DNA of 37,021 nucleotides, taken from the NCBI GenBank assembly GCA_021817145.1, contig JAKAVV010000024.1, forward strand, positions 1 through 37,021, written 5' to 3'. Shown in pieces: positions 17,948 to 20,708 of this stretch. This DNA is from a bacterium. GTDB taxonomy: Bacteria > Vulcanimicrobiota > JABDET01. The translations under genes were made by a program, and so were the position numbers. A model generated the notes under the pieces. The model was not told where the DNA came from and made no database searches. It worked only from the letters and a program-made list of their open reading frames with translations. Every line of letters starts with the position of its first letter. Position 1 is the stretch's first letter.

Positions 17948-17963
17948 GAATATGGAGGCATTG

Positions 17964-19247
17964 ATGAAAAAGTTTTTTCAAATTATCGCGATTTTTTCTT
18001 TTATATTGGTTTTCCTTACTTCCTGTTCGAAAACTCCTCGTAAAAAGATCGTGATCACTTTTTGGAATGCGATGAATGGATCTAGAGGGAAAGCTCTCCA
18101 AATCCTTGTCAATCAGTTCAATGCATCTCATCCTCGAATTTTTGTGAAATCGGTTTTTAAAGGAAGCAAGGCTTATTATTCCAATAATTACACTATTTTA
18201 ATTCGAGATCTTCTGCTGTCTTTAAAGAAAAACGATCCTCCTACAATGGCTCAAGTTTATGAGAATTGGACAGCTCAGTTTATTGGTGCCCATGCGATTA
18301 TCCCACTTGAAAAATTCATTCATAAAAAAAATGGCTATACTCCAAAAGATCTTCAGGATTTTGTGCCTGCGTTTTTAAAATCAAATGAGCCGAATGGAGT
18401 TCTCTGGACACTCCCCTTTAATAAAAGCCTTTATGTTCTTTACTATAATAAGAGTTTATTTAAAAAGGAGGGTTTAAAGCCTCCGGCAACCTGGGACAAT
18501 TTTTTAACTGTTGCGGAAGAATTGACTTTCACAGGTAGAAACAGGAAAGTGATTCGATATGGATTGACTGATCCTCCTGACGAAAACTTGTTTGACATCA
18601 TTTTTTATGCTCTCGGAGGGATTTATTTTAAACATGGTAGAGCTGATTTTAATGGAGAGAAAGGAGATTATGCTTTAAGATTGATCCGACAAATGAAAAA
18701 TGAAAAGATTTTCTTTCCAGATTACCATGCCCTTCAGGCTTTTACAGAAGGGAAAGCAGCCATGTATATTGATACAACAGCAGCTCTTCCGTATTTAGAA
18801 GCCAGCGCTAAATTTCCAATAGGGATTTCACGAGTTCCAGGTGAACTAAAATCAATTTCCCTTTTTGCGGGGACGAATTTGGCGATTTTCAAAAAATCTG
18901 CTCCTGCCCAGAAAAAAGCTGCATGGATTTTCATTAAGTGGCTTTTGAAGCCGGATCGGACCGCCTGGTGGGCTGCTCATACAGGGTATCTTCCTGTTCG
19001 AATCTCAGCAATTCATTCACCTGTTTTTGTTTCGTATTTAAAGAAACATCCTGAGTTTAAAATTCCTCTCCAGCAGTTGGGAAGAGCTTTTACAGATCCA
19101 AGAGTTTGGGCATGGGAAAGCATTCGCGGCATTGTAGGACATGAAGTGGAGGCAGCGATTTTTGGAAGAGCTAAAATCAAGCAGGCTCTCAATAAAGCAG
19201 CAGAAAAGACGAATTTATTATTAGCCCAATCCCCTCAGCAGCGATAG
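17964..19247 (+). CDS. Extracellular solute-binding lipoprotein (ABC, family 1 sugar-type)
   Basis: A lipoprotein of about 427 residues. The signal sequence ends in the lipobox VFLTSC. The mature protein has the features of MalE/UgpB-like binding proteins: ITFWNAMNGSRGKALQILVNQFNAS, AIIPLEKF, LYVLYYNKSLFKKEGLKPPATWDNFLTVAEEL, FTEGKAAMYIDTTAALPYL, and AAWIFIKWLLKPDRTAWWAAHTGYLPVR. It should capture a carbohydrate or glycerol-phosphate ester outside the inner membrane. No permease or ATPase gene is nearby, so it either pairs with a distant transporter or acts as a sensor. An upstream ATG at 17952 exists, but GGAGG five bases before 17964 supports that start. The 3' end overlaps the convergent pseudokinase gene by 27 bases. 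Confidence 0.88.
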   Translation: MKKFFQIIAIFSFILVFLTSCSKTPRKKIVITFWNAMNGSRGKALQILVNQFNASHPRIFVKSVFKGSKAYYSNNYTILIRDLLLSLKKNDPPTMAQVYENWTAQFIGAHAIIPLEKFIHKKNGYTPKDLQDFVPAFLKSNEPNGVLWTLPFNKSLYVLYYNKSLFKKEGLKPPATWDNFLTVAEELTFTGRNRKVIRYGLTDPPDENLFDIIFYALGGIYFKHGRADFNGEKGDYALRLIRQMKNEKIFFPDYHALQAFTEGKAAMYIDTTAALPYLEASAKFPIGISRVPGELKSISLFAGTNLAIFKKSAPAQKKAAWIFIKWLLKPDRTAWWAAHTGYLPVRISAIHSPVFVSYLKKHPEFKIPLQQLGRAFTDPRVWAWESIRGIVGHEVEAAIFGRAKIKQALNKAAEKTNLLLAQSPQQR

Positions 19248-20129
19248 GAGCAGTAAGAGGGAGGAAAGGGCTGAAAGAGCCATTGTCAGTTTCCATAAAA
19301 CTGCGGTTTTGTCTTGGGTTTCTGGCAGAAGTTTTCGTTTCCTATTGATTTCAAGAAAGCACTTGTAAAGCTCGTTTCTAAATACTCGAAGATTTGAGTA
19401 TCGCTTTTCAGGGATTGGCTGTGTGGCTTTTTCTAATACTTTATCGATTGAAGAGACAAGATTGGGATGGACGCTGTTTAACGGCGGGAAAACAAAAGGA
19501 AGGGATTTAAACCCTTCTCCTGCCAGGCAGAGATATAAAATAGAGGCAAGGGTGTAAAGTTCTGTTGTTTCGTTAAAAGCAGGGATATCGCTGAAAATTT
19601 CTGGCGGAGAAAAGCCAATGATGCCGGCAGGGGAGGAGCTGTTCGCTGAGAGTTCTGGGATTGGAATCATTTTTACCTTCCCTGAAAGAGTGATTAAAAT
19701 TTTTTTAGGAGAAAAACAGCAGTAGTGGAACCCCTCTTTGAAATTTTCTTGCAGATATAAGAGGATATCAGAGCACTGTATTCCCCATGACAAAATTTGT
19801 CTTTCTGGAAGAGCGACTCCAGCGTTTTCCAGGATTTGGTTCAGAGACATTCCCCCAATATACTCCATGATTAGAATTTGGTTTTCTTTTGTTTGTAAAA
19901 AGTCGGCGATTTTTATGAGATGCGGGTGATTAAATGATGCCCAGCGTTTTGCCTGGTTTTTAAAATATTCGGGCTCGATTTCTTTAAAAGCTTTAACAGC
20001 CCACCATTTTCCTGGGAATCTGAGGTCTGCTGCTTTATAGATTTGTCCCATCCCTGTGGAAGAAATAAGATTTTCTATTTTGTATCGCTTTTGCAGGATT
20101 TCTCCAGGAGTTAAGAACTGTTCGCCCAT
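19221..20129 (-). CDS. Membrane-tailed Ser/Thr protein kinase-like protein, predicted pseudokinase
   Basis: A 302-residue protein with a Hanks-type kinase fold. ILQKRYKIENLISSTGMGQIYKA is a degraded glycine loop, WWAVKAF keeps the beta-3 Lys (Lys46), HPHLIKIADF and LIMEYIGGMSLNQIL follow, and GFSPPEIF sits where APE belongs. The catalytic centre is lost. The HRDxKPxN segment reads YCCFSPKK (residues 136-143), with Asp to Cys, Lys to Ser and Asn to Lys. The DFG position reads PIP (156-158). Residues 280-299 form a C-terminal membrane helix, so the domain faces the cytoplasm on a tail anchor. ATP binding may persist, but phosphotransfer is unlikely. The gene converges on, and overlaps, the solute-binding lipoprotein gene. 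Confidence 0.85.
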   Translation of the reverse strand: MGEQFLTPGEILQKRYKIENLISSTGMGQIYKAADLRFPGKWWAVKAFKEIEPEYFKNQAKRWASFNHPHLIKIADFLQTKENQILIMEYIGGMSLNQILENAGVALPERQILSWGIQCSDILLYLQENFKEGFHYCCFSPKKILITLSGKVKMIPIPELSANSSSPAGIIGFSPPEIFSDIPAFNETTELYTLASILYLCLAGEGFKSLPFVFPPLNSVHPNLVSSIDKVLEKATQPIPEKRYSNLRVFRNELYKCFLEINRKRKLLPETQDKTAVLWKLTMALSALSSLLLLLSLLRGLG

Positions 20130-20247: not shown

Positions 20248-20288
20248 GACGGTGGCAGTAAAATTTAAAATAAAAAGAGGTGTTCAAA

Positions 20289-20708
20289 ATGAGTTCAACG
20301 GTGATTGGTTTACCGCTTTTTGTAGAGGTTAAACAAGCAGGTGTAGGGAAGGAGAATATGCTAACAGTAAACCCTGGTGGAAGTATTGCTGTGTCCCCTG
20401 GAGAAGAAGCTGTGCTTTCTCTTCCAGAAACATGGTCTCTGCATGATCCAGGCAAAAGCACTCCTTGGAGTGCCAGTATTTCTGGAAAAAACGCTTCTAA
20501 CTTTAATTTGAAATACATAGGAACTGGAGCAGTGATGCCATCAGAATACAGTGCTGGCAAGGGGGCTGATCTCTCTTATGTTATGGAATTGGTTCAAAAG
20601 TTTCAATTAACTGCTGCTGCTCCTGGGACAGCTCTTTTAACTTTTTTGGCAAAAGATGCGGCCGGTAAGATTTTTGGGAAAGAGGAATTTAATCTTGTCA
20701 GCCAATGA
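20289..20708 (+). CDS. Small hypothetical protein, possible chagasin (inhibitor I42)-like fold
   Basis: A 139-residue protein without a signal peptide or membrane helix. The ATG at 20289 follows GAGG by eight bases; a GTG at 20280 in the same frame is poorly placed. The pattern GEEAVLSLPETW ... STPWSASISG ... KFQLTAAAPGTALLTFLAKD loosely follows chagasin-type inhibitors of cysteine peptidases (a GxxxxLxLP start and a GTxxLxFxA end). The NPTTGYxW loop that such inhibitors need is not recognisable. The assignment is therefore a fold guess only. A glycine- and alanine-rich, beta-type composition is evident. It has its own promoter-like element, and the next gene begins 75 bases later behind a hairpin. 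Confidence 0.55.
   Translation: MSSTVIGLPLFVEVKQAGVGKENMLTVNPGGSIAVSPGEEAVLSLPETWSLHDPGKSTPWSASISGKNASNFNLKYIGTGAVMPSEYSAGKGADLSYVMELVQKFQLTAAAPGTALLTFLAKDAAGKIFGKEEFNLVSQ

Follow-up and report, generated by a model that had tools for sequence, protein, structure and literature searches.

We analysed a 37,021-nucleotide stretch of bacterial DNA (the window; contig JAKAVV010000024.1 of assembly GCA_021817145.1) and focus here on one reverse-strand gene, at positions 19221-20129, which is predicted to encode a pseudokinase held in the membrane by its C-terminus. Its features are given below. Counts out of three refer to the window protein and its two orthologues (together the window family), and the other counts refer to aligned rows of intact kinases, active kinases and tail-anchored kinase-like proteins from elsewhere in the phylum.

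19221..20129, reverse strand: coding sequence (P0001) of the tail-anchored pseudokinase, 302 amino acids (aa) with an ATG start, called from the open reading frame, the Pfam Pkinase match and the PknB-like fold of its AlphaFold2 model
20025..20066, reverse strand: degenerate glycine-rich loop (G-loop), residues 22-35 (ISSTGMGQIYKAAD), with Ser and Thr in place of Gly 1 and Gly 2 in 3/3 orthologues
19992..19994, reverse strand: retained beta-3 Lys, K46, invariant in 3/3 orthologues and in 30/30 intact rows
19965..19991, reverse strand: loop between beta-3 and alpha-C, shortened to 9 residues (47-55), against 18 in 20/20 tail-anchored and 25/36 active rows
19701..19724, reverse strand: former catalytic loop, Y136-CCFSPK-K143, within which begins the stretch SPKKILI (140-146) that is invariant in the window family
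19656..19664, reverse strand: former DFG motif, now P156-I157-P158, with P156 invariant in the window family
19236..19301, reverse strand: C-terminal membrane helix (tail anchor), residues 277-298, recognized by hydropathy, with an equivalent segment in 3/3 orthologues

The product matches Pfam family Pkinase (PF00069) with 38.9 bits against a curated cut-off of 31.7, and the kinase domain is its sole Pfam domain. The best AlphaFold2 model (mean predicted local distance difference test score, pLDDT, of 76.7; the other four models score 42-55) has a kinase fold followed by a C-terminal helix. The active-site geometry in this model is not informative, because pLDDT is below 50 at residues 132-138 and 158-185. 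The tail anchor was located by the Kyte-Doolittle maximum over 19 residues (1.89 at 277 and 1.88 at 280), and four residues remain C-terminal to the helix. In all three orthologues the hydrophobic segment ends no more than four residues short of the C-terminus, and none of them has an extracytoplasmic domain beyond the membrane helix. These results bear out the initial annotation, which was made from the sequence alone and described a tail-anchored pseudokinase retaining the beta-3 Lys and the general fold. A scan for promoters was not informative, with 1 site against 2.0 expected.

Two clear orthologues were identified among 98 genomes searched, one in a genome of the same genus (G001, 58% identity) and one in a genome of the same family (G002, 67% complete, 46% identity). 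Including the window genome (G000), the gene is present in all three genomes of the order that were examined. Across 149 genomes of the phylum, matches at E <= 1e-44 occur only in these three genomes and in G017, whose four matching loci encode kinases with intact motifs; this search scored the best 15 candidates or fewer per genome and could overlook a weak orthologue where kinases are numerous. Neither a viral-contig scan nor a first genome-contig scan turned up a relative, and a second genome-contig scan returned G001, G002 and two distant kinases.

The catalytic Asp, the catalytic-loop Lys and Asn, and the DFG-Asp are each present in all 30 intact rows and each replaced in all three members of the window family. 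In the window protein HRD has become Y136-C137-C138, the catalytic-loop Lys is S140 and the catalytic-loop Asn is K143; across the orthologues the catalytic Asp (D166) is C, C and N, and the DFG-Asp (D184) is P throughout. The catalytic positions first read as replaced in YCCFSPKK and PIP are changed in both orthologues as well. That HRD as a whole had been replaced is correct for the catalytic Asp but not for the Tyr at the HRD-His position, which is no loss because Tyr or Phe is common there in intact relatives (17 of 30 rows, with 12 His, 11 Phe, 6 Tyr and 1 Val). Other positions of the window protein have also changed: the alpha-C Glu is now Q59, the alpha-F Asp is E190, and S23 and T25 stand where the G-loop has its first two glycines. 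The residues of a structural salt bridge, E177 (the APE-Glu) and R243 (the alpha-H/I Arg), are retained, and the PPE form of APE occurs in intact relatives too. As the catalytic triad (K72, D166, D184) is incomplete in all three orthologues, with the Lys kept, we classify the window protein from its motifs as a pseudokinase with a PknB fold. Recent loss or a sequencing error, which orthologues with intact HRD and DFG would have indicated, is ruled out by the replacement of the same positions in all three proteins, both orthologues being pseudokinases as well.

The former active site is conserved in a new form, because the 22 invariant residues specific to the family include S140, K142, K143 and P156, together with S23, T25 and H135. 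These 22 are the subset of 96 kinase-domain positions invariant across the three orthologues that are rare (<=10%) in intact kinases. The SPKKILI stretch stays invariant where the adjoining HRD positions drift. The G002 protein keeps the alpha-C Glu, the HRD Arg and the alpha-F Asp; the first two are absent from both genomes of the genus, and the alpha-F Asp has become Glu in the window genome only (E, D, D). Parsimony on these three taxa supports a stepwise loss in which the catalytic Asp, Lys and Asn, the DFG motif and the G-loop would have gone first and the alpha-C Glu and HRD Arg later, in line with the ordered loss of catalytic residues suggested at the outset.

The gene is, by codon comparison, under purifying selection. 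Between G000 and G001, omega (the ratio of nonsynonymous to synonymous rates, dN/dS) is 0.205, with a bootstrap range of 0.117-0.306 (dN 0.298, dS 1.452, Nei-Gojobori); the estimate is limited to this pair because dS is saturated against G002. With the frame intact in all three genomes, this agrees with the earlier view that the protein is maintained and not decaying.

PF00069 matches six places in G000, six in G001 and three in G002. The window genome has three intact or nearly intact kinases (C28, C32 and C36 with HKD) and three pseudokinases (the window gene, C11 and C34). A membrane segment follows the kinase fold in 8 of 8 pseudokinases of the three genomes (hydropathy 1.52-2.51) and in 0 of 7 active kinases (0.85-1.21), rows that are not independent because there are only three families on each side. 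The partner-kinase search recommended in the initial annotation yields three soluble kinases in the genome (C28, C32 and C36) but none adjoining the gene; no kinase gene lies beside the pseudokinase gene in the window or at loci L037 and L039.

The other two pseudokinase families of the order have features of their own. C11 (loci L002 and L087, 629 aa) is a pseudokinase with a membrane helix, in which DFG reads GYG or NYG; it has relatives in G001, G002 and G003. Its beta-3 Lys is Arg in G000-G002 and kept in G003, and its C-terminal part has beta-propeller matches below their cut-offs. C34 (loci L006 and L088, 610 aa) and G001:C29 form a third family that lost HRD and the catalytic Lys and kept the DFG-Asp; a membrane helix is followed by a long C-terminal part, for which no Pfam match was found in C34.

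Elsewhere in the phylum, several matches of the window protein are kinase-like proteins that end in a membrane helix at the very C-terminus, and many of these adjoin large active kinases. A profile of 13 such proteins (A3), run over the 149 genomes with the best 14 candidates or fewer scored per genome, matched 31 genomes at 1e-50, and we read the best locus per genome in the best 28 of these 31. Twenty-six loci (L097-L122) belong to the tail-anchored type, and two, in G005 and G003, are intact kinases and were left out of the counts. All 26 proteins have the tail anchor, none has both G-loop glycines and all have lost the alpha-F Asp. The catalytic-loop Lys (K168) is Ser in 7/26. Nineteen count as pseudokinases because K72-D166-D184 is intact in only seven. 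The Asn is kept in 24/26 and the DFG-Asp in 25/26, and the open frames span 321-369 aa in 23/26.

In 21 of these 26 loci an intact FRD kinase frame lies directly downstream on the same strand, at spacings from a 62-nucleotide overlap to a 300-nucleotide gap; true overlaps may be shorter, because frames were measured from stop to stop. No kinase was present in the fetched flank (<=1,500 bases) for the remaining five (G006, G008, G011, G014 and G020). The 14 partner-kinase rows placed in a tree form one clade (support 100/98). The window's order contributed all its kinase-like proteins except C34 to this tree, and none of them joins that clade. These loci are likely to be a pseudokinase-kinase gene pair, and the pairing offers an immediately testable example of one in bacteria.

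Other arrangements were seen in the same searches. At L010, L016 and L022 the same strand carries, after an intact YRD or FRD kinase, a protein that combines zinc-ribbon-like CxxC pairs with a degenerate kinase domain, in which HRD is replaced by HRG, HRN and HLS at the three loci. The FRD kinase L026 (G005, 378 aa) is intact, has a membrane helix close to the C-terminus and four of the five spacings of the window protein described below, and is possibly an intact cousin of the tail-anchored lineage.

The window family resembles the paired proteins in its tail anchor, degenerate G-loop, similar length and five inter-motif spacings; it differs in having lost the Asn and the DFG-Asp, which they mostly keep, and in lacking their kinase neighbour. 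The five spacings (10, 25, 14, 14, 18) are found in 3/3 window-family rows, 15/20 tail-anchored rows, 0/36 active rows and 0/4 C11 rows; they were chosen out of eight measured, leaving out K46-H68, K46-F56 and P156-E177, where the window protein is shorter than the tail-anchored rows and most active ones. When motif columns are removed, the window family groups with tail-anchored rows in a tree (support 90/77). On balance we lean slightly towards the view that the window family descends from the tail-anchored lineage or is sister to it, and we have not filed it as a member.

Several results weigh against this placement, and judged by trees and profile scores the kinship is weak. The spacings were chosen after all eight had been seen, and with the other three included no row of any class matches the window protein; the beta-3 to alpha-C spacing, for example, is 9 in 3/3 window-family rows and 18 in 20/20 tail-anchored rows. 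With more rows in the tree, the grouping shrinks to the window family and the G004 protein (82/39). The three window-family rows score 172, 163 and 197 bits against a profile of intact YRD kinases and 158, 147 and 180 bits against the tail-anchored profile, a preference that holds with motif columns removed too, and the window-family profile over all columns ranks intact G017 kinases (L072, L010 and L074) first. In that ranking the G004 tail-anchored protein comes 17th (141 bits), and without motif columns it is 4th, tied (133 bits). The window protein also lacks the hinge Arg of the core clade, having Met before the hinge Glu, and the family does not share that clade's loss of the alpha-F Asp; the G004 protein is likewise without the hinge Arg. 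Grouping with the C11 pseudokinases, which share the K168 to Ser change, is neither shown nor rejected (approximately unbiased (AU) test p 0.326, and 0.224 in another test). The P156 to E177 segment has 20 residues in 3/3 window-family and 3/4 C11 rows and 26 in 23/36 active rows.

The same profile scores, together with the missing hinge Arg and the retained alpha-F Asp, would be expected if the family came straight from an intact kinase of the YRD type and acquired its tail anchor and loop lengths by convergence. Such an independent origin would have to account for five spacings common to 15/20 tail-anchored rows and to no active row, and for the 90/77 support in one row set. We regard it as a serious possibility, at somewhat under even odds.

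The kinase fold, the loss of catalytic and metal-binding residues, the tail anchor, purifying selection and conservation in three genomes of the order can all be read from the sequences. For the function, our preferred reading (probability roughly 0.55) is that the window protein is a dead PknB-fold platform at the membrane, a docking or allosteric partner of soluble Ser/Thr kinases, which possibly derives from a paired pseudokinase that is now without its partner. A role in regulating other kinases is suggested because the possible cousins mostly adjoin a working kinase gene, while the window gene has been kept intact. In this model, the tail anchor would hold the PknB-fold domain at the inner face of the membrane, where it may bind soluble Ser/Thr kinases and act without phosphotransfer. 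The ancestor would have been a tail-anchored kinase-like protein whose gene lay immediately before that of an intact kinase; this kinase was presumably lost in the order, and the pseudokinase may now serve C28, C32 or C36. The window family may then illustrate the fate of such a pseudokinase without its partner gene, in which new residues become fixed while the fold, the anchor and purifying selection persist.

This platform model has points against it. The partner kinase is inferred, and no neighbour ties the gene to a kinase within its own order. The pairing figure of 21/26 is a raw count, uncorrected for chance gene order. The division into anchored pseudokinases and soluble kinases comes from a small sample, with three families per side. 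Among the 30 active rows from beyond the order, some of them near-duplicate or cut by the end of the locus, 17 carry a membrane segment. Finally, the pseudokinase changes more quickly than the active kinases do (dN 0.298, with 0.043-0.140 for the latter), a pattern that relaxed constraint would also fit.

A broader version of the model is more doubtful. It supposes a two-protein kinase module in non-photosynthetic cyanobacterial relatives, with a tail-anchored pseudokinase made together with the adjacent kinase and regulating it. In the window's order this module would have been split, so that the pseudokinases alone would be anchored and catalysis left to soluble kinases, and the window protein would be an extreme, metal-independent survivor signalling in trans.

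Alternatively, the protein may act as a nucleotide switch, in which K46 and the new K143, beside an intact adenine pocket, would hold ATP or a different nucleotide in the absence of metal and a change of shape would carry the signal. The positions I22, V/I30, A/V44, M88, E89 and L145, whose adenine-pocket roles we take to be those of PKA, are kinase-like in all three orthologues. Metal-independent nucleotide binding is possible because the pocket is unfilled, without the bulky fillers of the MviN type, and because K46 and K143 are invariant. A precedent is ULK4, for which metal-independent ATP binding is described in an excerpt of PMC8141879. On the other side, all three orthologues have lost the first two glycines of the G-loop, the alpha-C Glu is missing from 2/3, and the low-pLDDT regions of the model (132-138 and 158-185) give no usable geometry, so we consider a ULK4-like switch unlikely.

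It is more improbable still that the gene is a relic kinase gene on which constraint is weakening and which plays no important part. Among the 12 G000-G001 gene pairs compared, the pseudokinase has both the highest omega and the highest dN (0.205 and 0.298); the three active kinases have omega 0.050-0.117 and dN 0.043-0.140, with kinases other than the window gene entered by their first 300 residues. Set against this, omega is well below 1 even at the upper bootstrap value of 0.306, the frame, the tail anchor and the new residues are fixed in three of three genomes, and SPKKILI is invariant amid drifting HRD positions.

The neighbouring features, neither gene of which we counted as belonging to the system, are as follows.

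17952..19247, forward strand: solute-binding lipoprotein gene (SBP_bac_8)
19221..19247, no strand assigned: 27-bp convergent (tail-to-tail) overlap of the pseudokinase and lipoprotein genes, not conserved in length
20280..20708, forward strand: divergent gene for a 142-aa protein with no Pfam or NCBIfam match at E 0.01

The tail-to-tail overlap had been noted correctly in the initial annotation, which raised the possibility of joint envelope sensing or of antisense control. It measures 27 bp in the window and 80 bp in G001; G002 has no such overlap, and its best lipoprotein match has only 23% identity although the pseudokinase is present. The absence of the lipoprotein or of the 142-aa neighbour from G002 is not proof, because that genome is only 67% complete. 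It is very improbable that the protein senses the envelope together with the lipoprotein or that the overlapping 3' ends exert antisense control: the convergent overlap does occur in two species of one genus, but its length is not conserved, no close lipoprotein match exists in G002, and a shared sensing role has no anatomical support because only four residues lie beyond the membrane helix.

The 142-aa neighbour was matched within the genus only (38 genomes searched, with no match in the 36 others), and G002 lacks it. This protein (window 20280-20708; G000:C25:17741-18175) has one further, weaker match in each genome of the genus. Each of G000-G002 has one FHA match, which in G000 is a stand-alone frame of ~100 residues (L096, G000:C28:141500-143000) and a candidate reader for the few kinases. 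We considered and rejected this FHA protein as an MviN-FhaA-like reader for the window protein, as nothing ties the FHA match to the pseudokinase gene. A phosphatase search limited to the PP2C_2 (PF13672) family had no match in 3/3 genomes.

Among known proteins, the PknB/StkP-type kinases share the fold of the window protein. Its model is structurally closest in the PDB to Mycobacterium tuberculosis PknB (Z 23.9, root-mean-square deviation 2.6, 230 aligned residues), and its best PDB sequence matches are StkP and PknB. Unlike these kinases, it lacks the catalytic Asp, Lys and Asn, the DFG motif and an extracytoplasmic domain, and it has a shortened beta-3/alpha-C loop and activation segment. 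EssB/YukC, a membrane pseudokinase, also has an extracytoplasmic region, whereas only four residues follow the membrane helix of the window protein.

Bacterial pseudokinases have been catalogued, and are described as experimentally largely unexplored, in the excerpted text of PMC12599244, which covers the ActPs1-3, GLW, CP1, DYD and DLHK families as well as EssB/YukC, SidJ and SelO. No family described in that excerpt retains the beta-3 Lys and carries a tail anchor while having lost D166, K168, N171 and DFG. In titles and the starts of abstracts, no paper joined 'pseudokinase' or 'serine threonine protein kinase' with 'Melainabacteria', and among the matches listed no title concerned a tail-anchored bacterial pseudokinase beside a kinase. 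The papers searched gave no name for the tail-anchored proteins paired with an FRD kinase.

As far as the excerpt of PMC12599244 describes them, the MviN/ActPs3 proteins are mainly actinobacterial and resemble the window protein in having a pseudokinase domain, a C-terminal membrane region in many members and an activation-loop deletion, and a scaffold-like role is described for MviN. They differ in that the beta-3 Lys is lost in ActPs3 (VALT) and kept as K46 in all three window-family proteins, and in that bulky residues fill the MviN pocket, whereas that of the window protein is open. EssB/YukC, in the same excerpt, is likewise a membrane pseudokinase in which three catalytic motifs and the G-loop are degraded and the activation loop is reduced, but it is part of type VII secretion and, unlike it, the window protein keeps the beta-3 Lys. 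The CP1 and DLHK pseudokinases, as described there, have no membrane region, in contrast to the tail anchor found here. Compared with these descriptions, the window family appears to be a variant set apart from the families that the excerpt of PMC12599244 presents.

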